Assembly: GCA_025786725.1 (NCBI GenBank)
Contig: JAHLTZ010000008.1
Span: 1 to 64,000, forward strand
Direction: 5' to 3'
DNA from: Syncephalis fuscata
Lineage: Eukaryota; Zoopagomycota; Zoopagomycetes; Zoopagales; Piptocephalidaceae
Length of the DNA: 64,000 nucleotides
Shown: one piece after another, positions 34,281 through 58,460 of the stretch
How positions within the stretch are numbered: position 1 is the stretch's first letter
Layout: each line of letters opens with the position of its first letter
Program-made: the position numbers and the translations under genes
The notes under the pieces: generated by a model
The model's database searches: none
What the model was told of the DNA's origin: nothing
What the model saw: only the letters and a program-made list of their open reading frames with translations

Positions 34281-36464
34281 TCAAAGTTTGGCCGGAATGC
34301 GAGTATGGCCAACACGATGCCAGCCATCTTCAAATATGCCTTTCAGTCCTTGGTAGGAGTGGCCGTCGATGGCTAGTGCTCCTGCGGGCGGCTCATAGCC
34401 TGGTGTGACATCGGTGCGATTCATTGGGCTGGATTGTGCCATTGCTGCCAATGCTTCGTAGACTCGGCCGTCCCATCGACCAAGTGCACTTCCTAGACGA
34501 CGATCCGATAGATTAAATGCATCAACAAGTGCCAATGCATCCGGTCGTATTTCCTGCAGTAGCTGGCGTATAGCTGCTCTAATCAATGGTCCATGTGTCG
34601 GCTGGAGGTAGCCGGCTTCCAAATGGTCTCCTAGGTGTGTTGACAAGCAAGATAGTGCAAACAAATCACATAGACGGCTTAGTACGCTATGGATTGGCTG
34701 CGGTATATCGATCGGTGCTGCTTCTCCGGCTGATGTATGATGCTCAAGGCTAAGCTCTGGATAAAGCGCCTCTACAAAGCTGCGCACCACATACAGCTCA
34801 GCATGTGCACGGACAACTCGTTCAACATCGACATGGCACTCTGCAAATGATGCGCCTTGTTTCTGGCGTTGATATAAACACGCCAAGTGATGAGCTGCGC
34901 AGTGTTCTAAAGCATGTAAATAAAGTTTTGGATTGCGCAAATCATTTGCAATAGCAATCGAGCGGCGGTCATGTTCAGATTGTTGAGCCAGCACAGGTAA
35001 CATATAGCGCTCATCAGCGCTTGCGGTATGAGAGGCAGTTGCAATCATTTGCAAAAACTCGTAGCGTCTAAGAAGGCTACGAGCAGCTTGTTGAACCATG
35101 ACATGATTCTCGCCTTCTCCAGTGTTGAATTGTGCATATGATGCAACCAATGACGGCATGCCACTGAATTGGCTGTAGCCGTGACCACCACATGCACGAC
35201 GAAGTGTCTCGAGCGACTCAGAAGTTCTGCTAGTCATATATGGCTTCAATGCTGATGCAGAAGTATGCACTCTCGCCAAAAGTCCCGCTGCTGCACTTGA
35301 GGACAGCCGCGGTGAAATACATTGGCGGTACAGTTGCCCTAGCCTTTGGCCAGCGAAATGGAAGGCATATGCTTCACTTAGCGGAACTAGTACTCGGTGC
35401 TGCTGGCTCTGATGGTCTAGAATGGCCACTTCAGGTGCATTTCTATTTGCATCTGAATGGCTGAATTGATGACGCACCACAGAATATCGTGTAGCAATTG
35501 TACAGCCGATCGATAGGACAGAGCTAGCTTGTGATATTACGGCAACACGGCTGTTTAGCAAAGTTCCATAGACGTGCCTTTGGTCAACCTGGGCCTGACG
35601 TCGTAGCTTCCCGTCACGTGTCAATTCTACGTGACGCATTAACATATTGATCCGGGGTATGCGTACTTTTTTCAAAACTAAATAGCCGATATCAATAGAA
35701 TTGTATCCAAAGTTTGGGCCAATATCGCCTGTTTCCACTCCAGGAAGCAGTGTATGATCCTTGAATGAACGGACTTGCACCATAAATGGAAACACACCAG
35801 CATGGTGTCCATTTGGCAGGACCAATTGGGCCATGATTAAAGCCATATTGGCTGTTTTGCCCATTCCAGAAATCCACCATTTAACACTTGATAAGTTGGT
35901 GTATTAAGTTCTATTTCATCGGTGGCAGGCAGAAAAGTGGCCGTTGTTTCAATTCCACGGATATTCGATCCATGAGCCATTTCAGTTTGCGCATAGCAGC
36001 CCAGAATGGCCCAGTTCTCAGCCAATGGAACCCATAGTGCTTGTGCTCTCGGTACCTTGGCTTTTAAGCGTTTCTATAAGTGCATCGTTGTTGTTTAATA
36101 TTGGAATGCCTTCCTGTATTTCTTTATATATGGTATTAAAATTACACTGTGTCCAATTATATTTTGAACGTAGCTTTTGTAATCGCTCAATCATCTTTAG
36201 CCCCCGTAAATATAATTCTTGGTGATTAAAATGATATGCTTGTGTTTTTTCAAAAATCGGCTCTTGTTCTAGTATACGCTCGATTTTTTCAATTTGTTTT
36301 GTACGCTTAACACCTCCATTAAGTATATGAGTAAGTTCGCGCGCCGTAAATGATGCTTGAGAACGTTCACGAGCCAAACTTGGATGCTGTTGTTGCTGAT
36401 GTCTATTTCCATCGTTTATGATAGCAGTAACGACAGTAGAAGTGTTGATTAATGATATATCCAT
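34281..36464 (-). pseudogene. peroxisomal acyl-CoA oxidase, copy 1 (frameshifted)
   Basis: FAD-dependent first enzyme of peroxisomal beta-oxidation. N-terminal part (36464-36040) reads HPSLARERSQASFTARELTH and LYLRGLKMIERL. The main part (35864-34281) has VRSFKDHTLLPGVETGDIGP, IPRINMLMRHVELTRDGKL, RRACGGHGYSQFSGMPSL, FNTGEGENHVMVQQAAR and the PTS1-type C-terminus AKL. Near 36040 two single bases are missing (relative to copy 2) around the GTACCGAG box, and two more near 35880-35900 break the segment with [19 protein letters not shown] from the rest. So three frames are needed. From about 36070 down to the 3'UTR it is almost identical to copy 2, but its N-terminal region is not. Either a young pseudogene or a gene with sequencing deletions. 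Confidence 0.8.
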
Positions 36465-44330: not shown

Positions 44331-45264
44331 GGCATTTAATATTTTATAAATAGTTTGTATCAAATGATTGTCCATTATTCAGTGTTACAGTGACTAATCA
44401 GCCGCAAATCAGCTGATCTTGCTATGACCAGTAGCTACCTTAATATTATATTCAATGCTTGCTTAATTTCTATTGTTTGTTGCAATGTGTGAATAATATA
44501 TATATATAGTTGCTTGTTAATCATTAAAATTACTACTACTAGATTAAATCATTAATGGTTTTTTTGTTAATTACAAGCTACATGTGATCTTTTTCTAAAC
44601 GTTGTATTAGTTTCAAATGTGTGATTCTTGATATTAAGAGTGGCTAGACCTTTGCGATTTATTCATTATGTTAAGTAAAAGTGCTCATTACATCATTGTT
44701 GCAATTTTTCCTAAGACCGAATTGAACAACCATTTCTTTGTGCAGGGCTGGTCATGATGGTATCACGTTGATGTTGTTGCTATTTTAGGTATTGTTCTGC
44801 GTTGAGCATATCTTGTTGCTGTAGTTTTGTGCAGCTTTTGGCCTTTGATTGTTTTGCTTTTAGAAGCAAGGCCCGTATATTGTTATTGCTGTTTAATAAA
44901 TATTGCATATACAAAACGTATTTTATTTAACTATTATTGCAAAAGCACAATTTAATTTGTATTATGCTTTAATATAAGTTGCATTATAATTTAAGACATG
45001 CTATATTGCATTTTGATAGACTTTATGAACATGTTTTAATAGTACAGAGTGCTAGATGGCCATAACAAGTAATGTACATCGGATGAATCAGGAATACAAA
45101 ATAGTCTGCATATTTCGTTAATTTATAACCAGTTTGCGATGTTCAAATATGCATACGCCTGGTACATACATATCTACACACATACATACATATATATATG
45201 TAAGTGTTCAAGGATCTGTCGTGGTACACCAATACTCTTTTGCCTGACACCCTTTGTTATTGCT
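44331..45264. other. intergenic upstream of acyl-CoA oxidase copy 2
   Basis: AT-rich, with an AT dinucleotide tract at about 44499-44512 and a CA/TA tract near 45170-45205. No gene seen. Confidence 0.35.
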
Positions 45265-47517
45265 ATGTCTTTGTTACCACTGTCGCCCGCTGTCAGAATT
45301 GATAGGACCAAGGCTGTGACGGTCCCAAATGCCAGCCCAGTGCCTAAACCAAGTGCCACATTTCCTAGCGCTGTTAACTACGAGTCACCACTTATTCGTA
45401 GTTGGCAGCAACATCCTAGCCTGGCTCGTGAACGTTCGTTAGCTTCTTTTACAGCAAGAGAACTTACCCATATCATTAATGGGAATGCCGCACGCACTGA
45501 GCGTATCGAAGCCATCCGCCAATTATTGGAGCAAGAACCAATATTTGACAAAATAAATAGCTATCATCTTTGTCATGAAGATCTTTATCTTCGTGAGCTT
45601 CAGATAATGGAGCGTTTTAAAGCAGTATGTCTAGAAAATCGCTGGTCTACTGAGGACAAGGCCATCGCCTACGACGAAATCTACGATGATCTTTCCGTGA
45701 TTACCAACAATAACGTCGTCATCCAAACGCTTAAAAGCCAAGGTACCGAGGAGCAGCAAGCACTATGGGTTCCATTGGCTGAGAACTGGGCCATTCTGGG
45801 CTGCTATGTGCAAACTGAAATGGCCCATGGATCGAATATCCGTGGAATTGAAACAACGGCCACTTTTCTGCCTGCCACCGATGAAATAGAGCTCAATACA
45901 TCAACACTATCGAGTGTCAAATGGTGGGTAGGTGGAATGGGCAAAACAGCCAATATGGCTTTAATCATGGCCCAATTGGTCCTGCCAAATGGACACCATG
46001 CTGGTGTGTTTCCATTTATGGTGCAAGTCCGTTCATTCAAGGATCATACACTGCTTCCTGGAGTGGAAACAGGCGATATTGGCCCAAACTTTGGATACAA
46101 TTCTATTGATATCGGCTATTTAGTTTTGAAAAAAGTACGCATACCCCGGATTAATATGTTAATGCGTCACGTAGAATTGACACGTGACGGGAAGCTACGA
46201 CGTCAGGCCCAGGTCGACCAAAGGCACGTCTATGGACTTTGCTAAACAGCCGTGTTGCCGTAATATCACAAGCTAGCTCTGTCCTATCGATCGGCTGTAC
46301 AATTGCTACACGATATTCTGTAGTGCGTCATCAATTCAGCCATTCAGATGCAAATAGAAATGCACCTGAAGTGGCCATTCTAGACCATCAGAGCCAGCAG
46401 CACCGAGTACTAGTTCCGCTAAGTGAAGCATATGCCTTCCATTTCGCTGGCCAAAGGCTAGGGCAACTGTACCGCCAATGTATTTCACCGCGGCTGTCCT
46501 CAAGTGCAGCAGCGGGACTTTTGGCGAGAGTGCATACTTCTGCATCAGCATTGAAGCCATATATGACTAGCAGAACTTCTGAGTCGCTCGAGACACTTCG
46601 TCGTGCATGTGGCGGTCACGGCTACAGCCAATTCAGTGGCATGCCGTCATTGGTTGCATCATATGCACAATTCAACACTGGAGAAGGCGAGAATCATGTC
46701 ATGGTTCAACAAGCTGCTCGTAGCCTTCTTAGACGCTATGAGTTTTTGCAAATGATTGCAACTGCCTCTCATACCGCAAGCGCTGATGAGCGCTATATGT
46801 TACCTGTGCCGATGCAGCAGCAACCGTATAAACGCTGTTCCGCAATGATAGCAAATGATTTGTGTAACCAAAGATGTATTTGTACGCATTTCAGCGTTGC
46901 GCAGCTCATCACTTGGCGTGCTTATATCAACGCCAGAAACAAGGCGCATCATTTGCAGAGTGCCATGTCGATGTTGAACGAGTTGTCCGTGCACATGCTG
47001 AGCTGTATGTGGTGCGCAGCTTTGTAGAGCGCTTTATCCAGAGCTTAGCCTTGAGCACCATACATCAGCCGGAGAAGCAGCACCGATCGATATACCGCAG
47101 CCAATCCATAGCGTACTAAGCCGTCTATGTGATTTGTTTGCACTATCTTGCTTGTCAACACACCTAGGAGACCATTTGGAAGCCGGCTACCTCCAGCCGA
47201 CACACGGACCATTGATTAGAGCAGCTATACGCCAGCTACTGCAGGAAATACGACCAGATGCATTGGCACTTGTTGATGCATTTAATCTATCGGATCGTCG
47301 TCTAGGAAGTGCACTTGGTCGATGGGACGGCCGAGTCTACGAAGCATTGGCAGCAATGGCACAATCTAGCCCAATGAATCGCACCGATGTCACACCAGGC
47401 TATGAGCCGCCCGCAGGAGCACTAGCCATTGACGGCCACTCCTACCAAGGACTGAAAGGCATATTTGAAGACGGCTGGCATCGTGTTGGCCATACTCGCA
47501 TTCCGGCCAAACTTTGA
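45265..47517 (+). pseudogene. peroxisomal acyl-CoA oxidase, copy 2 (frameshifted)
   Basis: Start taken at ATG 45265 (MSLLPLSPAV), which aligns with the start of intact copy 3. Motifs as in copy 1: [78 protein letters not shown]-terminal AKL. The frame breaks near 46232 (GGACTTTG where copy 1 has GGAACTTTG), within 46870-46890, and near 47025 (GAGCGC where the others have GAGGCGC). All are single-base losses. From about 45739 to 46800 and from 46890 to the 3'UTR it is close to identical with copy 1. The 46801-46885 segment and the N-terminal 470 bp are clearly different. This mosaic indicates gene conversion. Confidence 0.8.
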
Positions 47518-48172
47518 GTTATTTGTAAATATTTAAACACTGTATCTATCGTAGCAATATAGTTATCTAATTCTTCAATAAAATATTAAGTTAAAAAATT
47601 ATAAACATATAGTCATTCATTTTTATATTAAGATGGTACTGGGGAGAATAATTGTGAGTATGAATATTTTTGCTTATTAGAAAGTGTGGATTGTTAAGCT
47701 AATTTATAGTTATAATATTTATTAGTAATATATCGTGTTAACGATGTTAAATGTGCAATTTCCAGATTAAAAATTGTTGTGTCCGCCAGGGACTATCAGG
47801 GACTATCAGGGATCATCGGTACATTTGGCAAATTATACTAGTGTTATTTATAAAGTGTAATGAGGATGGTATAACTAATGTTTTTATGATTCTAACAAGC
47901 CATAAGTGTTTAAATAAGAATAATAAACATTTTATTTTGATTGCTATATTAAATAAATGTAAACCATTAAATTATAAACATAACATCATTATTATTAAAA
48001 TAAAATCATGTTTTATTACAAGTTTGCACGACTGAATAGACACAGTAGTTATGCGTATACTTGCTGATAATATAATGATTTATTGATTAAAAGGCGAATA
48101 AACCGAAAGACTGGCTGAAACTTGATGTATGAAAGAACTGGACAGCAGATGTAGAATGGTCTTGTTCTCCAC
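47518..48172. other. intergenic; start of tandem-duplicated segment A
   Basis: The shared 3'UTR with oxidase copy 1 ends about 47570. Three copies of a GACTATCAGG-type decamer lie at 47787-47817. From about 47990 the sequence matches 52855-53060 and represents the 3' flank of the microexon gene. Confidence 0.5.
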
Positions 48173-50987
48173 TTAACGTATACCTAAAGTATGTTGAACT
48201 AGCAGTCCAATCATACTGCCAATGCCAATGTCTTGAATGTAACGGTTATTCTATATTTACAAACAATATAACATGTATCCTATAATTAGCGTGTAAAGCC
48301 ATAGTATGCAATACTACTTACCTTCTATTAATATTAATTATGGATGCACATATTATGTGTAAGTAATTGATGTATAATAAAGCAGTATACAATACTACTT
48401 ACAGACAATTAGTATTAAATCATTGATGTATAAGCTATATAATTAGTACATATCTAGCTAGAATACAATATTACTTACGACCTATTAATATTAATTTGTT
48501 GAGGGACACATTACATGGTATATAATTAGCGCATTAATAAGTAATATAAAATATTATTTACCACCTATCAGTGTTAAATTGTTAATATACATAGTGATTA
48601 ATATACGATACAACCTACATGCTATTAACATCAAGTTGTTGATATAAATTTAATTAATGTATAGTCGATTAATATACAATAGCACTTACGAACTATTAGT
48701 ATCAAGTCGTTGATTCACACAATGCATAGCAATTTGTTAATATATAGTCAATTGATATACAGTACCACTTACGACCTTTGATATTGGTTCGATGATACAC
48801 ACAATGCATAATCTATAGTTAGTGCATAGTTAATTGTCATACAGTATCACTTACAAACTAATGATATTAAATTATTGATATACAGAATATATAGCATGCG
48901 ATTAATGCATAGTCGATTAATACACATTGTCACTCACCATCTATTAGCATCAATTTGTTGATAAACACAATGAGCATGCAATCAGTGTATGTTTATTTAA
49001 CGGATAATGTGACTTACTACCTAATATTATTAAATTGTCAATAGAGACGATGGATAGCATTTAATCAGCACAAATTCTATTAGTATACAGTATCACTTAC
49101 GAGCTATTAATGTTAAGTTATTGAAGCACACCGAATGTAGCATATAATTAATGCATAAGCAATTAATGCACAACACCACTTACATCTATTAGAATTAAGG
49201 CATTGGCATACATAATATTTAGTTGAAGCATATTCAATTAATATAAAGTATTACTTACCACCTATTGATATTAAAATAGCAATACACACAGCGCATAGAG
49301 TTTGGTTAGTATATAACCAGTCGATACGCAGTATTACTTACTACCTATTGATATTAGAAGATCAATACACACAACGCATAGAATTTGATTAGTATATAGC
49401 CAGTCAATATGTAGTTTCACTTACGGCCTATTAACATCAGTTTATTGATACAAGTGGCACGCATTATGCGATTAATGTATAGCTAATTAATATTCAATAC
49501 TACTTACCACCTAGTGGCATAGAATTGTTTATACAAAATAAAAATATGATTAGCAAGCAGCTAAATAAACATAATATGACTTACATGCTGTTGATATTAA
49601 ATTATTGATATGCATAATACATGGTATGTAATTAGTGTATAGTCAATTAATATTAAACAAGTGGCAACTCTAGAAAGGCAAAATAAGTGGTGTAAGGAGA
49701 GGTATAGAACTAATATGTGCTGCAGATGTAGTAGTGGAGAAGTAGAGACGTGGCAACATATAGTGAAGTGTGAAGGAAACGGACTAGATAGGGAAAAAGA
49801 AGCAAGAGATAAAATTAAAGACATGACAAGAAGAAAGGTGGAGTGGATAAATGAAAGAAGATCGAGAAAAGACCCGCCAATGAGACTGTTAAATGTGGGG
49901 GAGGTGGCTGAATCTATTGTCCCAGATCAGCCAATCAGCAACACCGGATTTCTATTAGGATTGGTGAGCTCACAAACACTATACAGTATGAAAAGAGAGG
50001 GGGTACGCGAAGAAGAAAAAAGAGAACTAATAAAAACAGCAACAAAGACGGCATTGGACTTTGTATGGAAGAAGATATGGAAGACAAGATGCAAGCAAGT
50101 GGACGAAGCAATAGGAAGATGGAAAACAGTACGTACCGACACACAAATAGCAGGTCAACCAGAACCACAAGAAGGTCCGGCAACAAACGCCGAAGGCCAG
50201 AGAGGCCTGAGGCAAATTTATACCTGGGACCACATCAATAAAATGGCGTTCGACGTCGAACGCCACCTAAAGATGGTGGCCCCCGCGTGGAGTCTATAGG
50301 ACCCGGCTCCATGCAAAAACGTGGCGGTCCACTCGGTATCAACAATGCTACATTGTTTAATATTTTAAAAGCTTTATTATAATTAACGCGATAACAGCAT
50401 GACACTGAGAAGCAGCACAAATTCTTTAATTATGCGCAGCGGGGGCCCACAAGCTCTTCAAAATAAAAATAAAAATAAATAATATTAAGCAAGTGGTATA
50501 TACAGAAAATATCATGTAAGCAATGTATATCCAATCAATATACAGTACAACTTACGACCTATTGATATCAAACCATTGATACACACAGTACATATCGTTT
50601 AAGCGGTGTATAACTAATTGTTATAAAATACCACTTACATGCTATTAAATCATTTATACACGACATGATTATATAATTAGTGCGTATCCAGCCAGTATGC
50701 AATGCTACTTACGATCTATTCATACTGATTTATTGATACATACAGCAAGTAATATAGTAAGTATTGTAACAACAATCCACAATTCCTACTAACCATCTAA
50801 TATCACAATCAATTAAACATACTGTCAGCAAGTATATCGATTGGTATATTAATCTTAATTGCAACATACTACGAAGGACCAGAGATGGCTTAGCCTCAAC
50901 CATGGCTGTAGTAGCTACAAAAGCCACGAGAAGAGTGCAAACAACGGCAATAAAGAGCTTTATGGTGATATTGATTTGTTGAAACAA
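48173..50987 (-). CDS. secreted peptide gene with about 21 single-codon microexons
   Basis: Exon 1 (50870-50987, 118 nt) encodes a signal peptide (IKLFIAVVCTLLVAFVATTA) and the start of a mature chain (VEAKPSLVLR). Twenty-one tandem units follow. On the minus strand each is an intron of about 80 nt (54-80 nt in most units) starting GT and ending AG, followed by three exon bases. The last intron ends at 48251 and the final exon is 48173-48250 (25 codons plus TAA). Microexons lie at 50794, 50713, 50639, 50556, 49585, 49508, 49425, 49342, 49259, 49184 (2 nt), 49101, 49018, 48938, 48855, 48773, 48690, 48619, 48562, 48479, 48403 (no AG) and 48322. Including all gives 258 nt, an open 85-residue product, against 95 residues in paralogue 53072-53359. 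Skipping everything gives an immediate stop. Splicing is inferred, not observed; one large intron is the alternative. Confidence 0.55.
48251..50869 (-). repeat. tandem array of about 83-bp intron-plus-microexon units
   Basis: Modal spacing between the 3-nt exons is 83 bp (others 71-82, one 57). The plus-strand signature is ACTTAC-NNN-CTAT. The GTAAGT donor is exact in 17 of 21 units; the rest are GTTAGT, GTGAGT, GTAGGT and GTAAAT. Intron bodies look only about 60 percent alike between units, and many carry a TACTAAT- or ATTAAT-type branch-site-like sequence about 40 nt before the acceptor. A LINE fragment interrupts the array at 49665-50480. Confidence 0.8.
49665..50480 (+). mobile_element. 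5'-truncated LINE (non-LTR retrotransposon) insertion
   Basis: Open frame to 50299 with a C-terminal zinc-knuckle-like CCRCSSGEVETWQHIVKCEG, as found at the end of fungal non-LTR retrotransposon proteins, and a basic helical region (TATKTALDFVWKKIWKTRCK). A 3'UTR and an A-rich tail (AAATAAAAATAAAAATAAAT) follow. The insertion is bounded by a 16-bp direct repeat, AATATTAAACAAGTGG at 49649-49664 and AATATTAAGCAAGTGG at 50481-50496 (one mismatch). Reverse transcriptase and endonuclease are missing, so it is a dead, truncated copy. Confidence 0.78.
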
Positions 50988-53071
50988 AAAAGGTAGAACA
51001 AAAGTAGAATATGGTGATAGTGAGTATTGGTAGAAAGCAGATTGTGATGATGATATTAATGGTTAGTTATGTATATTATGCCTTCTATTTAAGTCCATGA
51101 TTATCTTGAAATACCAATATACTGTGTTGTATAGGCTATGTCAGTGAGATGAAAATAAGCCAATGGACTATGTCTAAATAATATTTCAAAGCACACGTGT
51201 AATATTGGAGTAACGCTATGATGAAGCTCAATCCAGCTTTTCGTTCTAGCTTGTTTGGCAACACCATGAAAAGAAATGTACTAGCTCTATAAAGCAGTTG
51301 TAATACCAGCTTTTCTCTGTCTTTATTCCCTGAAAGCTGTAATAACTAGTATTAATGTTTGCCCGAATAAAGCACACCAATTATATTGCAATAACTTCAA
51401 TACAAGGAATTGGCATTGCTAAATAGGCCTTTATTGTTTTGCATAAACAGGTTACAATTTCTCAAGTCGTAAGAATATGCTGCTTTAATGCTGTGGATAT
51501 TGTTACAAAAAAGAAGTGTGTTATATCCAAACATATGGACGTCACACAATGTGTAATCTTTGGCATTTAAGATGACTGTTGATTGAAATTTACCAAGAAT
51601 TGGCTGTGCAATAAGGACTGCTGTGGTTTGCTGTATTACCACGTCTTTAGCAATAATTATTTTACTTAGTCATTTATATAATCGAATGTTCGACTGTGAA
51701 ATAGCCTGTATTCATTACACACATGCAATACGATTTTTAAAACTAAAATACACACATCATACAATACCAAACAGATAATGCCAGTGTTGAATGCACAATG
51801 GCAGTGTGCCGCATATTAATCAATAATCACTCAAGATTTAGTCGATAATATATGCTTCTGGGCGGGATTCTGATAATAGATTAAGCAAAGTTGCTTATAA
51901 AGTAACAAACCAAAACAGAGATTAATGGAAAGCAAGTTGCACTCCAAATATTAATTGATTTTGTATTATCATCGGTTTAATGAACAAGAAATAAACTATT
52001 GCAATCAAACTAAATTAAATACAGTTTAACAAACATTTAACAATTTGACTATTCTTCTAAATTGAATTGGCAAACATTTATACTCAATGAAAATTTAATA
52101 TTTGTAATATTTCCTTCTAAATGATGCAATATTTGCATTGTGATGATTTATGAACGAAAGAAACAGCAGTGTGGTACCATATACTACCCATAGAAATCAC
52201 AGCATATGGGCAAGGCATCTTATTATATTATTCCAGATATTTGCACAATTATATTAAAACATAAGAAAAAGACTATAGAAAGTATGTTAGCTAATAAATA
52301 CTGATTACTACCACACCGCTCATTTATTCTAATGGCATTCGATGCTTATTCTAACTTATCTTGCTTCATTTTCTCTACTCGCTCATTTCTGAATTATAAT
52401 CCTTTTTTATCTTCTCTTGCGTTATTATTGATTAGTACGCACACATCCAGCTTTTTGATAAATATTTTTAATTGTTTAAAATAGATATCACTATTTTCAG
52501 CAGTAGTTTCCATTTTATTGTAATGATGTTATTATGCTGTCTAGTTGGCTCAACAGCAATACAAGTGAAAAAACATACTCTTCAATTGGTGATTGCTGTA
52601 ATTGTTATTATAATAATGCTATACTTGCAAATGAATATCATTGATCGCATTACTAACATATATTGCTACAATTTCTACATACATAACTGTTGTTTGAGTG
52701 ACAACATAATGTTATACACACACTAATTTATGCTTATGGTTAATACAGTACATTTTTACAAGTTTTTGTGTTAATATCTCTACTCGTTTAATGTTTATCA
52801 ATTGCCGAATCTAAATAAGTGCAGACATAAATATAATAACTTAATCAAAGACAATTAAAATAAAATCACATGTTTATTACTATAAGTTTGCACAACTGAA
52901 TAGACACAGCTATGCGCATACTTGTTAATAATATAATGATGCCATAGATTAAAGAGTGGAGAAGCTGGGACATTGGATGAAACTTGATATATGAATGTGC
53001 TGACCAACAGCTGTCTAATAGCTTTGTTTTCACAAAATATATATTTAAAGCATATTGAAGTAGTAATTCAA
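50988..53071. other. intergenic between the two secreted-peptide paralogues
   Basis: 5' region of the microexon gene (probable TATA-like TTAAATAG on the minus strand near 51085), then the duplicated upstream block to 52150, then unique AT-rich DNA and the 3' flank of the next gene from 52855. ORFs 51397-51642 and 52472-52726 have no support. Confidence 0.4.
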
Positions 53072-54880
53072 TTACATTACTTTTAAATGACCGGAGCCAT
53101 TACCGCTAGTGCCAACGTGAGCATAGATGCCTTCGTAGGCAGGAGCGCAACTAGTGCAATAGCCATCATCATCTCGACATTTGCAAGCGCCAAAAGGAGG
53201 AATGGGGCCTCTGTCTTCGTTAGAATCTTTGTCTTTTGGCACGCGACGAATTAGAGCTGGCTTAGCATCCACCATGGCTGTAGTAGCTACGAAAGCCACC
53301 ACGATGGTGCAAACAATGGCAATGGAAAGCTTCATGGTGATGTTGACTTGTTGAAACAAAGTAGAGCAAGTAGAAAGTGGTAGTTTAAAGTAGGTAGTTG
53401 CAAGTACTTGCCAGCAAGTAAAATGATAACCTAGTGTATGTGGTCTCCTAGAGTAAAATGTAGTGAGTACTTGGTAGAAAGTAGAGTGTGATGATGATAG
53501 TACCGGTCAGTTGTGTGGATTTGTGGGCTATTTAACGTGTATTGTGTTGTGAAAGCATCCAATCAATGTATAGAGCAGCGGACTTATTAATTTGCTACTC
53601 AATGTAGTAACATAATTGCTAAATAATTAATGATGGGAAAAAATATTAATAGTATACCTATAAATGTATGTGTTGCATTATAAGGAAATACTAAATAAGG
53701 CATATTTCTGATATTGCCCTAGTTAGTTGTGTGAATTTGTGAGCTATCCAACTTTGTAACTACGCTAAAGCGCCAAGAAATGCACTGTATTAACTATTCC
53801 ATTGACGTTCAATGGAAATTAATAATAACACTTACATGACGATTTTAATTGTGCGTATACTGATATACCAATAGCGTGTTATTATACAGATAATTCATCA
53901 ACTCAGCTTACTCAGACATCTGAAATAGCAATACCGGTGATTCAATACGTATACGCTACAGGGGTATGCACATTAACCTGCATTTATTACGCAGTTTGGA
54001 CATTTAACGATATAAATTGTAATTTACAAAAAGAATAATGACTACTCTGCAGTCCCTTCTGTCACGTTAAATTACAATATATATATGCACACCAAACCAT
54101 ACACAATATTAATGCATCAAGTTTTATACAATATATTAATATTTTTATACAATATATACTATTGCGCATAAATCAAACGTATCTTTTTGAAACATAAAAT
54201 GTGCCGTATTTAAACATATGAATGCCAAGCGCTGCACAATTTGCGACATTTCAGACAGCTGTTAATCAAATTAGCTGAGAATCGACTATATAATAAAGAC
54301 TTTTGTAGTATAATGCATTACAGTATTTTCAGGAACAAACTATTACATCCAATCATTCATACAACTAAATTTTTGACTGCAAAGTGATTTATATTCGTCA
54401 AGCTAAATGCAACGCAGTTTGTGTACAATAAAATACGCACATCATACAGCTCCAGATAGATATTTCAGTGCCAAATCTATAATGGTAGCAGACTGCACAT
54501 CAGCTAGTAATCATTTATGGATTATTTAATAGCCTATGCTTTTATAAATCAATTTACATAACAAACTAAGGCAGAGATCAATGCAAAACAATTTGCGACT
54601 CAAATATTAATTGGTTTAGTCTTATTACCAAGTTATTAAACAAAAATTAAAAGCATTGCAACTATAATAAACTAAATTAAGTTTATTATAAATTTAACTG
54701 ATGTTGGTGCAACTAGAAAAATAACGCTATGCAGAATTGAAGTACAAAAAACATAAAAAATGTACATAGCATCCAATAGTTTAGTTAATCTTTTAAAATT
54801 GAATTAGCAATTTTATACTTAAATGGCACTTTAGTATTCGTAGTATTTCCTTCTATACGTAACGACATTTGCGTTATTTA
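52855..54880 (-). repeat. tandem duplication unit B (intronless paralogue and flanks)
   Basis: Counterpart of 47990-52150. The most similar upstream part is 54360-54880 (for example TACGCACATCATACAGCTCC against TACACACATCATACAATACC, and the TTTCCTTCTA box). The order 3' flank, gene, leader, upstream block is the same in both units. Confidence 0.6.
53072..53359 (-). CDS. small secreted cysteine-containing peptide, 95 aa
   Basis: Single exon, ATG 53359 to TAA. N-terminal signal peptide (MKLSIAIVCTIVVAFVATTA, cleavage likely after VDA). The mature part starts KPALIRRVPKDKDSNEDRG and contains four cysteines in ACKCRDDDGYCTSCAP, then a Gly/Ser-rich end (HVGTSGNGSGHLKVM). I do not know the family. 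Size, secretion signal and cysteines resemble the small secreted proteins of fungi, but no function is implied. Tandem paralogue of the microexon gene at 48173-50987, with which it shares signal peptide, leader and 3'UTR. In that copy the cysteine region is replaced by the microexon array. Confidence 0.75.
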   Translation of the reverse strand: MFQQVNITMKLSIAIVCTIVVAFVATTAMVDAKPALIRRVPKDKDSNEDRGPIPPFGACKCRDDDGYCTSCAPAYEGIYAHVGTSGNGSGHLKVM

Positions 54881-55530: not shown

Positions 55531-56204
55531 TAACGAAGATACCATTAGTTTAAGTAATATTAATTCTTTAAAATTTATACAATAAATTTATATTTAGTAT
55601 ACAAATATGGTATGCGCATAGCTACCTATATTTAATAGAATGTCAGTATTCAAGATTGGTATTATTGTATTTCTAGTTATTAGCTAAACCTTAGCAATAA
55701 GCCATGTTTCTTAGAATTTTCTCTTTTTAATATTAAGACAGCAGCAAATTTGTAGGGTACCCGTTTTTTAAATGCATATCAACAACACAACTGTGGTAAT
55801 CATATTAAACGGCAACAGGCCTTATGTATCGCGAATATTCCAACCATGTAATACAGCAATGTCGTTGATGGCCAACCATACAAAATAGAAGCGATATTTC
55901 TTAATTAGTATTATTTTTATTGAAAATGGTCGTGTTAACTGAATTTTTAACATTGATATAGATTAGATTTGTAATAAAATTCCAAATAATGAGAAGCAGC
56001 TAATCGAAAAATTAAAAAATGTGGGTTCTAAGGTATGTGTAGTAATCGGCATGTATATATGCCGACCACTTGACGGAACGCTCACAGCAAAGCGGGCCGT
56101 AAGTTTCCCGCTTTGTTACACTTGTGCATTATAAATATATATATAAATTATTACTACAATACACCAACACCTCTTTTCATATTACGTTTTACTTGTTTAT
56201 TACT
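55531..56204. other. upstream region of acyl-CoA oxidase copy 3
   Basis: AT-rich promoter side. A short inverted pair AAAGCGGG (56092) and CCCGCTTT (56108) could form a hairpin about 100 bp before the ATG. No gene. Confidence 0.35.
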
Positions 56205-58460
56205 ATGTCGTCACTACCACCGTCGTCTTCTTCTGGCTCCAATGCCTCCAAAGCTGGCACAACACCAGTCTCTGGCTCATTACCTACGCCAAATATTATA
56301 TCTTCCAACGCTGCTAGCTATGCACCACCACTAACACGCACTTGGCAGCAACACCCTGACCTGGCTCGTGAGCGTTCGCTAGCATCGTTTACGCCACGCC
56401 AACTTACGCATATTCTTAACGGTGGCGCTGAACAAACCGAGCGCATTGAAACCATTCGCCAACAGCTAAATCAAGAGCCAATATTTGACAAAACACATGG
56501 CTACCATCTTAATCACGAAGGTCTTTATCTTCGTGGATTGCAGATGATGGAAAGATTTAGAAAATTACGCGTGGAACATCGTTGGTCTACTGACGATGTA
56601 GCCATTGCTTATAAAGAAATATCTGAAGGCTTGCCGGTACTACTTAATGATGATTTATTTATTAAAACATTGAAGGAGCAGGCTACGGACGAGCAGCAAG
56701 CGATATGGGTTCCATTGGCTGAGAACTGGGGCATTCTAGGATGTTATGCACAGACCGAAATGGCTCATGGATCTAATGTTCGTGGAGTTGAAACAACAGC
56801 CATCTTTTTGCCCAACACTGATGAAATCGAACTTAATACGCCAACGCTATCCAGTGTCAAATGGTGGCCTGGCGCATTAGGAAAAACAGCCAATGTTGCT
56901 GTTGTCATGGCTCAGCTGATTCTTCCTGGCAATCGCCGTGCTGGTGTACTACCGTTTATGGTTCAACTTCGCTCATTCAAAGACCATACATTGCTTCCTG
57001 GTGTGGAAACAGGCGATATTGGACCAAAGATTGGATTTAACGCCATTGATAATGGCTATCTTTCGTTAAAGAAAGTACGCATACCTCGGATTAATATGCT
57101 GATGCGTCATGTAGAATTAACACGCGAGGGAGAGCTAAGACGTCGTGGCCAACACGATCAGCGACACGTTTATGGAACTTTGCTATACGCTCGTGTAAAC
57201 ATTATATCGGACGCTAGTTTGGGGATAGCCCAAGGTGCTACTATTGCTACACGCTATTCATTAGTACGCCGACAATTTAGTCACTCAGAAACTGATAAGA
57301 ATGCCGCTGAAGTAGTAGTTTTAGATCATCAAAGTCAACAACAACGTGTTATCACTCCAATCAGTGAAGCATATGCAGTCCATTTTACTGGCCAAAGAAT
57401 GAAGCAGTTGTATCACCGCCTTATATCACCAGGTCTATCGCCTGAAGTAGCATCAGCTTTATTATCTGAATCTCATGGATCGGCATCCGCTTTAAAATCC
57501 TATGTTACAGACATGACTGCAGAATCACTTGAGACACTTCGTCGTGCATGTGGCGGTCATGGCTACAGCCAATTTAGTGGCTTGCCTGACTTGTTAACTT
57601 TATATTTGCAATTTAATACAGTAGAAGGAGAAAATCATGTAATGGCCCAACAAGCAGCTCGTATCTTACTTCGACGCTACAGCAATTTGCAATCTGCTGC
57701 TGATGCTACCCATACTGCTAGTGTTGACGAGCGCTACATGTTATCTGTGTCAGCGCAACAACTTGAAAATGACCGTTGCACGGTAGTTATTGCAGAAGAC
57801 TTGCGCAATCCAAAGCTTTATTTACACGCATTTGAACGCCGCGCAGCTCATCACTTGTCATGCTTGCATCGCCGCCGCACACAAGGTTCACCATTTGCAG
57901 AATGCCATGTCGATGTTGAACGAGTTGTTCGTGCACATGCTGAGCTGTATGTGGTGCGCAGCTTTGTAGAGGCGCTTTATCCAGAGTTTAGACTTGATGA
58001 GCATACATTAGCCGGAGAAGCAGCACCGATTGATATACCGCAGCCAATCCATAGCGTACTAAGCCGCCTATGTGATTTGTTTGCGCTAACTCGCATATCG
58101 AGGGAGCTAGGGGACCATTTGGAAGCCGGCTACCTCCAGTCGACACATGGACCATTGGTTAGAGCAGCTATCCGCCGACTATTGCAAGAAATAAGACCAG
58201 ATGCATTGGCACTTGTTGATGCATTTAATATTTCAGATAGTCGTCTAGGAAGCGCAATTGGTCGATGGGACGGCCGAGTCTACGAAGCATTGGCGGCAAT
58301 GGCACAATCCAATCCAATGAATCGCACCGATGTCACACCAGGCTATGAGCCGCCCGCAGGAGCACTAGCCATCGACGGCCACTCCTACCGAGGACTGAAA
58401 GGCATATTTGAAGATGGCTGGCATCATGTTGGCCACACTCGCATTCCGGCCAAACTTTAA
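56205..58460 (+). CDS. peroxisomal acyl-CoA oxidase, copy 3 (intact, 751 aa)
   Basis: Oxidises acyl-CoA to trans-2-enoyl-CoA with H2O2 production in peroxisomes. Single exon. I place the start at ATG 56205 (MSSLPPSSSSG), because the frame upstream has only a GTG and untypical sequence. N-terminal block WQQHPDLARERSLASFTPRQ, flavin/substrate domain [61 protein letters not shown]-terminal oxidase domains RRACGGHGYSQFSGLPDLLT and FNTVEGENHVMAQQAAR. It ends HTRIPAKL, with AKL as a peroxisomal PTS1 signal. No frame breaks over 2.26 kb. Its last 560 bp are much closer to copies 1 and 2 than the rest, consistent with conversion. Confidence 0.93.
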   Translation: MSSLPPSSSSGSNASKAGTTPVSGSLPTPNIISSNAASYAPPLTRTWQQHPDLARERSLASFTPRQLTHILNGGAEQTERIETIRQQLNQEPIFDKTHGYHLNHEGLYLRGLQMMERFRKLRVEHRWSTDDVAIAYKEISEGLPVLLNDDLFIKTLKEQATDEQQAIWVPLAENWGILGCYAQTEMAHGSNVRGVETTAIFLPNTDEIELNTPTLSSVKWWPGALGKTANVAVVMAQLILPGNRRAGVLPFMVQLRSFKDHTLLPGVETGDIGPKIGFNAIDNGYLSLKKVRIPRINMLMRHVELTREGELRRRGQHDQRHVYGTLLYARVNIISDASLGIAQGATIATRYSLVRRQFSHSETDKNAAEVVVLDHQSQQQRVITPISEAYAVHFTGQRMKQLYHRLISPGLSPEVASALLSESHGSASALKSYVTDMTAESLETLRRACGGHGYSQFSGLPDLLTLYLQFNTVEGENHVMAQQAARILLRRYSNLQSAADATHTASVDERYMLSVSAQQLENDRCTVVIAEDLRNPKLYLHAFERRAAHHLSCLHRRRTQGSPFAECHVDVERVVRAHAELYVVRSFVEALYPEFRLDEHTLAGEAAPIDIPQPIHSVLSRLCDLFALTRISRELGDHLEAGYLQSTHGPLVRAAIRRLLQEIRPDALALVDAFNISDSRLGSAIGRWDGRVYEALAAMAQSNPMNRTDVTPGYEPPAGALAIDGHSYRGLKGIFEDGWHHVGHTRIPAKL

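Follow-up and report, generated by a model that had tools for sequence, protein, structure and literature searches.

Serial 3-nt exons in Syncephalis fuscata: a probable decayed member of a secreted-peptide family predicted to be encoded codon by codon

The window analysed here is a 64,000-nt stretch of Syncephalis fuscata DNA (contig JAHLTZ010000008.1, positions 1 to 64,000), and the genus is described as mycoparasitic in the relevant part of PMC10386755. The species is placed in Zoopagomycota, Zoopagales, Piptocephalidaceae, and it figures among the hosts of viruses detected by a survey based on transcriptome mining and culture screening (PMC7482067). On the minus strand of the window, at 48173–50987, a signal-peptide exon (50963–50870) is followed by units of mostly 80–83 bp that start with GT and end with AG, and adjoining units are separated by a gap of 3 nt. 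This arrangement, a minus-strand signal-peptide exon with about 21 GT..AG units spaced by 3 nt, had been put forward in an original prediction and is confirmed in the sequence. The two irregular units that it mentioned, one of 2 nt and one lacking AG, are located at 49185–49184 and immediately before 48405, where TTG stands. The features concerned are as follows.

50870..50963, minus strand, exon 1, encoding signal peptide and pro-region, its start codon and its RR site both lost
50797..50869, minus strand, intron 1, a separate intron type with donor GTATGTTG
50794..50796, minus strand, microexon ATG, followed by the off-consensus donor GTTAGT
50713..50715, minus strand, microexon ATC
50639..50641, minus strand, microexon CAT
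50556..50558, minus strand, microexon GTC
49657..50488, plus strand, 832-bp insertion that interrupts an array intron; not present in the C222 copy
49661–50299, plus strand, ORF within the 832-bp insertion, without Pfam match
49585..49587, minus strand, microexon CAT
49508..49510, minus strand, microexon GTG
49425..49427, minus strand, microexon GCC
49342..49344, minus strand, microexon GTA
49259..49261, minus strand, microexon GTG
49184..49185, minus strand, 2-nt unit AT, a frame break; 2 nt in the C222 copy too
49101..49103, minus strand, microexon CTC
49018..49020, minus strand, microexon GTA
48938..48940, minus strand, microexon ATG
48855..48857, minus strand, microexon TTT
48773..48775, minus strand, microexon GTC, with acceptor CAAAG
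48690..48692, minus strand, microexon TTC
48619..48621, minus strand, microexon CAT
48562..48564, minus strand, microexon GTG
48479..48481, minus strand, microexon GTC
48403..48405, minus strand, TCT after TTG, without acceptor AG; same in C222
48322..48324, minus strand, microexon AAG
48130..48250, minus strand, last exon and 3' UTR, the 48130 edge being provisional; its first bases carry the stop codon in intact copies such as C239 and C190
53072..53335, minus strand, intronless paralogue, MKLSIAIVCT..RRVPKDKDSNEDRGPIPPFGACKCRDDDGYCTSCAP.., resembling the spelled peptide of the C13 array gene

The window array is 98–99% identical to the C222 copy. Common to both copies are the off-consensus first donor, the 2-nt unit and a TTG where the acceptor AG would be expected; the loss of the start codon, the loss of RR and the 832-bp insertion are confined to the window copy. 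Because the start codon, RR and one acceptor are lost, one unit has 2 nt and 832 bp have been inserted, the window copy is, judged by its sequence, a decayed family member. Other stretches of the genome resemble the 832-bp insertion. Neither the ORF in this insertion nor five public family proteins gave a Pfam match above the cut-off; in the Pfam search, a weak Gloverin match of P0129 (E = 0.051) lay below it. A search of the window for Rfam families and tRNA found none. The same window also contains an acyl-CoA oxidase gene at 56208–58457, which shows 97% identity to a record from S. fuscata.

Many paralogues across the 29-Mb assembly appear, among the matches listed, when the array or its first or last exon serves as query. 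The junction pattern TTAATAGNNNGTAAGT (TTAATAG-NNN-GTAAGT) has 1,992 genomic matches, compared with 1 for a reversed-pattern control. With the gap allowed to vary from 0 to 15 nt, 2,078 TTAATAG..GTAAGT pairs are found (control 57); 1,992 of these (96%) have a gap of exactly 3 nt, and the remaining 86 are near the control level. Exon 1 with its donor, CGNCGNGGTATGTTG, occurs 89 times in the genome (control 0), a pattern that the window's own exon 1 and donor do not match. Chance or a low-complexity repeat was rejected on the strength of the controls for TTAATAGNNNGTAAGT, for the 0–15 nt gaps and for CGNCGNGGTATGTTG. Given that the exact TTAATAGNNNGTAAGT pattern is found in 248 of 596 parsed 3-nt junctions, the 1,992 exact matches suggest that the genome may hold about 4,800 3-nt exons, taking the parsed loci as typical.

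The family shares a common plan, consisting of a signal peptide, an RR (kexin-type) site and then a usually Cys-rich peptide, with a second dibasic site (..RRDAKR..) in C204. Exon 1 typically reads MKLSIAVVCT..DAKPALVRR|G and ends in phase 1. By eye, a hydrophobic leader of the MKLSIAVVCT type is present in nearly all exon-1 copies inspected, the frame-shifted L020 being an exception, and a TACTAAC-like site is seen in intron 1 of many copies. A search of the protein collection, which depends on shared 5-residue words, returned 16 proteins at E ≤ 1, all from S. fuscata and none from outside it, and another search of this collection returned 4 proteins, from S. fuscata only. S. fuscata probably possesses a large family of peptides that are secreted, usually rich in Cys and probably processed at the kexin-type site.

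Exon lengths were obtained from a free-length parse in which exons of 1–60 nt were allowed across 56 merged regions, near-duplicate loci included, with splice-site matrices that used intron bases only and were trained on 504 junctions already having 3-nt spacing. By far the commonest length among the 609 internal exons is 3 nt (596); five are 6 nt, two are 2 nt and six are 29–59 nt, and intron lengths peak at 78–80 nt. Exon-1-anchored parses additionally yield exons of 6, 9, 21 and 27 nt. The exceptions that are not multiples of three comprise exons of 2 nt (C46 and C1, the C1 array also containing stops), 19 nt (C79), 20 nt (C13) and 40 nt (C222). Parsed introns of 150–165 nt are either real or hide missed microexons. 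The donor is exactly GTAAGT at 397 of 478 unique junctions, and the exon ends in G at only 120 of the 478; the near-uniform GTAAGT fits donor recognition from intron bases alone.

Of 27 parsed genes, 26 have an exon 1 of 94 nt (93 nt in C223), which therefore ends in phase 1; if the triplets are coding, each codon would comprise the final base of an exon together with the opening two bases of the exon that follows. In this phase-1 reading, the codons listed in the original prediction (ATG, ATC, CAT and others) are out of frame. The frame test used runs in which exons are separated by single introns of 60–95 nt, and removal of near-duplicates reduced 67 runs to 46 and 526 exons to 392. Phase 1 contains 1 stop in 346 codons, compared with 16.6 ± 3.1 (minimum 7) in 2,000 within-array shuffles of exon order, and 50 Cys in 346 codons, compared with 29.0 ± 3.9 (maximum 43) in the same number of shuffles. 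The other phases were rejected: phase 2 gives 32 stops and 12 Cys in 346 codons, like its own shuffles (29.0 and 14.7), and phase 0 gives 2 stops and 3 Cys in 392, a phase in which exon order cannot be tested.

A later set of 17 loci, fetched under a different finding rule (22 runs, 18 kept, 106 codons), partly extends genes from the first frame test and thus adds new exons but not in every case new genes. It contains no stop in 106 codons (null 4.5; 4 of 2,000 shuffles equally low). Cys occurs 16 times in this set, against a null of 8.2, and 1 of 2,000 shuffles is equally high. In a plain regex reading, phase-1 stops are encountered in L018, L029, L033, L036 and L053; fuller parses place further exons at the stops in the first four, and L053 (C230) retains its stop. 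As bases 80 nt apart are dependent only when spliced in phase 1, this signal is hard to explain unless the exons are spliced together and translated.

Complete array genes contain up to 49 introns. Specifically, C239 has 36 introns, 34 of its 35 internal exons are 3 nt long, and it spells MKLSIAVVCTVVVALIAATVIVDAKPALVRRAKDPAKCNQCMSQCYGNYPYPSQAINDCPKRCAKQCK, also written MKLS..RRAKDPAKCNQCMSQCYGNYPYPSQAINDCPKRCAKQCK, followed by a stop codon that falls within the opening bases of the last exon. C190 (31 introns) spells ..RRAAEECRVCLENCKKNGWSAFWCHTWSTCSRACA and C91 (19 introns) spells ..RRAGAEPKPCWEPWRGWYPCPS, each closed by a stop. The parser assigns 49 introns to C135, with 48 of 48 internal exons of 3 nt, a regex finds one extra triplet inside a 161-nt intron of this gene, and its reading frame continues into the last exon. 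In the complete genes C239, C190, C135 and C91, all internal exons are multiples of three. At C239, the only array locus checked against public annotation, model P0122 reads ..RRAKDRKLYC.., corresponding to exon 1, CCA, AAG and ATC and then running into the intron; it includes two successive 3-nt exons before ending inside the array.

Homologous peptides are also encoded without interruption, as in the intronless paralogue of the window, for which public model P0125 gives a different and longer C-terminus. The L025 protein as query yields at least 150 scored genome matches, several of them running on without introns. Fourteen of 20 fetched places hold uninterrupted Cys-rich preproteins, two are uninterrupted without Cys in the mature part, and four are interrupted or without a frame. 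The spelled C13 peptide (..CKCQDEDGNCTSC..) aligns with CKCRDDDGYCTSC of the window paralogue at a score of 71, the best of 500 shuffles reaching 42. Spelled C239 scores 109 against the uninterrupted P0127, compared with 22 and 19 for the wrong phases 0 and 2 and with a best score of 52 for 500 order shuffles, each run against 18 peptides; two genomic stretches, C212:181922-182038 and C104:2893-3009, encode the mature part of P0127 without interruption. C135 and L081, a pair picked after the likeness had been noticed, score 112 (best of 2,000 shuffles 58). The regex run of C135 that includes the parser-missed microexon spells CTYSECMEKCKTYC, identical to a stretch of the uninterrupted L081, and the differences between the two aligned peptides include whole-codon gaps. 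When 19 array genes were compared with 18 uninterrupted peptides, C13, C239 and C168 beat all 500 shuffles, two more genes stood at 4–5 of 500, and 14 of the 19 did not stand out.

The flanks of 12 uninterrupted loci were read for retrocopy marks, the repeats being the best of many comparisons. At L094, homology to array genes extends only from about -52 to +256 and is followed by AAAAAA and by one copy of a 14-bp direct repeat (12/14 identical), the other copy standing before the 5' end; on the strength of this mRNA-limited homology, the AAAAAA and the repeat, L094 is classed as a probable processed retrocopy. L104 carries a 17-bp repeat (16/17) at both ends, and L105 and L109 have A6 and A7, respectively, at the end of homology. 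Marks are weaker or absent at L106–L108, L110, L111, L025/L026 and the window's 53335 gene. A few of the uninterrupted paralogues may be natural cDNAs. Several uninterrupted loci share longer upstream stretches with array genes, and the window's uninterrupted gene has 840 nt of upstream sequence in common with the C13 array gene. The parent of a retrocopy might itself have been uninterrupted. On a weakly supported tree built from exon 1 and UTRs (52 rows, many without UTR), array and uninterrupted forms require at least 11 changes, just 2 of them demanded by the starred branches; the labels show some clustering (11 changes against a mean of 15 after shuffling), and a change count of this kind cannot separate gain from loss.

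Introns within an array resemble one another, with a mean identity of 0.77–0.78 compared with 0.74 for shuffled sequences under the same aligner, and some pairs reach 0.9–1.0. Identity is 0.781 at lag 1 and 0.770 at lag ≥15 (shuffled 0.742); because it drops so little with distance, duplication of neighbours as the sole mode of growth receives no strong support. Selection was compared in pairs of arrays with exon and intron labels taken from one gene per pair, and a set of divergent pairs (exons 67–85% different, introns 22–31%) was left out because their units may be paired wrongly. Between L048 and L066, a close pair, exons differ at 8/54 positions and intron interiors at 67/1198 (p = 0.013), and the splice-site hexamers differ at 1/216 (donors 0/108, acceptors 1/108; p = 0.0002 versus intron). 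Between L041 and L058, a divergent pair, exons change faster than introns with p = 0.097 or 0.017 and splice sites more slowly with p = 0.002 or 0.00002, in each case depending on direction. In six further close pairs, neither exons nor splice sites differ significantly from introns in the amount of change. The faster change of exons than of introns suggested by L048/L066 and L041/L058 is nominal.

We place at roughly 0.88 the probability that the window locus is a decayed member of an S. fuscata family of secreted peptides encoded codon by codon. At the level of the family, there is strong support for serial exons of single-codon size in a gene for a secreted peptide; the copy for which they were proposed is read as decayed. 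Under this reading, exon 1 would supply the signal peptide and end after RR plus one base (phase 1), and a row of homologous introns of about 78–80 nt with 3-nt exons between them would follow. With each splice, the final base of an exon would meet the opening two bases of the exon that follows, every 3-nt exon would contribute one added codon of the mature peptide, and in intact genes the stop codon and 3' UTR would come from the last exon. As two spliceosomes would hardly fit on both sides of a 3-nt exon, the introns would be removed in turn, most simply from 5' to 3', each splice adding 3 nt to the upstream exon and exposing the next donor, and the 5' splice sites would be recognised by intron bases alone. 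Given the likeness and symmetry of the units, single codons would be gained or dropped in frame by unequal exchange, and the gain or loss of one unit would constitute a frame-safe one-codon change. The peptides may act on host fungi in an effector function. The fuller scenario, in which dozens of introns are spliced sequentially, whole codon-plus-intron units are gained, lost and exchanged, and mRNAs return as intronless retrogenes, stands at about even odds.

Several other explanations bear on the same observations. If single microexons were skipped freely, each gene would be a peptide library; the frame would be kept, the internal exons of C239, C190, C135 and C91 being multiples of three, and the whole-codon gaps between the C135 and L081 peptides are in line with this idea, but the strong, uniform donors and the retention of Cys codons point to the complete set as the chief product, which leaves free skipping a doubtful, if credible, proposition. 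An ancestral uninterrupted gene entered at each codon by introner-like mobile introns would account for the homologous peptides of array and uninterrupted genes and for the 840 nt upstream of both the window's uninterrupted gene and C13. We consider this origin rather improbable: the five seemingly solitary unit matches that were fetched, among the matches listed, all lie inside arrays, the weakly supported tree intersperses uninterrupted copies with array genes, some of these copies bear retrocopy marks, and we know of nothing that would direct introns into phase 1 at intervals of exactly 3 nt. That most arrays are dead relics of a family formerly expressed and now replaced by uninterrupted genes would suit the window copy, broken in several ways, and other arrays with insertions or stops, yet it has poor odds against pooled arrays that are almost stop-free (1/346, 0/106), splice sites conserved in two diverged pairs and the long intact genes C239, C190 and C135. 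Lastly, the alternative offered with the original prediction, a single intron that duplicated itself in tandem and left the triplets as non-coding spacers in one long intron from exon 1 to the last exon, agrees with the likeness of introns within an array (0.77–0.78 versus 0.74 shuffled) and is nonetheless highly improbable, contradicted by a coding signal across introns in which triplets act as codons, by splice sites conserved at every unit of L048/L066 (0/108 and 1/108 versus 67/1198) and by several spelled peptides that resemble those of uninterrupted paralogues.

The limits on exon length, exon as opposed to intron definition and the order in which introns are removed are long-standing questions in splicing, and runs of up to 48 three-nt exons would make them directly testable, because spliceosomes can hardly hold two neighbouring introns at once. 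Codon-by-codon encoding also suggests how a coding sequence could evolve by frame-safe one-codon steps and, if true, a parasite peptide could alter its length and content with the frame intact. The C239 public model, cut inside the array, shows how such genes escape annotation. Gene finders rarely permit chains of 3-nt exons, so genes built in this way may lie unnoticed in other genomes.

Among known systems, schistosome micro-exon genes (MEGs) are characterised, in the pertinent section of PMC5825161, as encoding secreted products with a signal peptide and as having a coding region composed mostly of symmetric micro-exons of 6–36 bp. The likeness comprises the predicted signal peptide, the predicted secreted product, the symmetric micro-exons that fill most of the coding region, and occurrence in a parasite. 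The exons of S. fuscata are symmetric but, in 596 of 609 cases, 3 nt long rather than 6–36 bp; moreover, each represents one codon, up to 48 follow in a row, and the introns are alike. S. fuscata is a fungus, and a relationship to MEGs is not apparent. Aphid bicycle genes, as presented in part of PMC9168663, encode fast-evolving putative effectors from many very small internal exons of nearly one phase, with structure better conserved than sequence. Many tiny one-phase exons are thus common to both, in other proteins and other organisms. Bicycle exons exceed one codon, and we know of no look-alike intron arrays in these genes.

At Drosophila ratchet points, according to the passages on them in PMC8605326, an acceptor and a donor are juxtaposed and a splicing step sets the next donor at the junction. 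Seemingly zero nt are left there and the introns are long, whereas in S. fuscata AG does not directly precede GT: 3 nt lie between them, each step would leave 3 coding nt, and the introns are about 80 nt. Tiny exons are described in the relevant portions of two further sources, a 1-nt exon included by the spliceosome in Arabidopsis APC11 (PMC4674806) and a 3-nt exon in Drosophila homothorax (PMC7392893); these are single exons in single genes, in contrast to the serial exons of S. fuscata. Families of similar introns within one genome are represented, in the corresponding parts of the literature, by introners, introner-like elements and the repeated stwintrons of fungi (PMC9860276, PMC8469720 and PMC4457414, among others). 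Such families are spread over many genes, whereas the S. fuscata units examined stand head to tail in one gene family. No precedent for serial single-codon exons was found in the open-access literature searched, nor was one found for this fungus. With one codon as the exon unit and a codon plus an intron as the repeat unit, codon-by-codon genes may be categorically new; to a stricter reader, they may represent an extreme form of the micro-exon gene.

Positions 48100-53400 of the window match contig C222 (10,013 bases) at 98-99%, a likeness that extends to C222:4327-4494, which matches the uninterrupted paralogue. C222 may represent another allele of this region or a recent duplicate of it. Near-identical pairs also occur among other arrays, for example between C1:476-478k and C1:531-533k, which lie in opposite orientation.

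The 832-bp insertion at 49657-50488 within the window's array is not present in the C222 copy. Among the matches listed in the genome search, similar stretches occur at 99% on C24, C177, and C2, at 92% on C272, and at 89% on C135. By eye, the ends of the insertion resemble those of a truncated non-LTR element that has an A/T-rich tail and a duplicated target of ~17 bp. A further insertion end, ATTTTACACGGGG..CCATC, is found where parsing halts in other arrays, on C1, C158, C168, C201, and C236.

The window contains three acyl-CoA oxidase regions:

34281-35864, minus strand, acyl-CoA oxidase region
45139-47027, plus strand, acyl-CoA oxidase region
56124-58460, plus strand, acyl-CoA oxidase region

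The first two share, by eye, identical-looking protein stretches in opposite orientations, and 45139-47027 is split over two frames; together, these features suggest an inverted duplication.

The second internal exon of the C79 array (locus L014) is 27 nt long within a run of 3-nt exons; it encodes a poly-proline stretch, has KR at its end, and perhaps represents units fused through partial intron loss.

Locus L074 (C1:523550) and the public protein model P0135 are members of the family that have its leader and the kexin-type RR site, followed by long, Cys-free mature parts; L074 contains a second dibasic site (AVEPLAKR). The same leader is thus common to peptides of different kinds.
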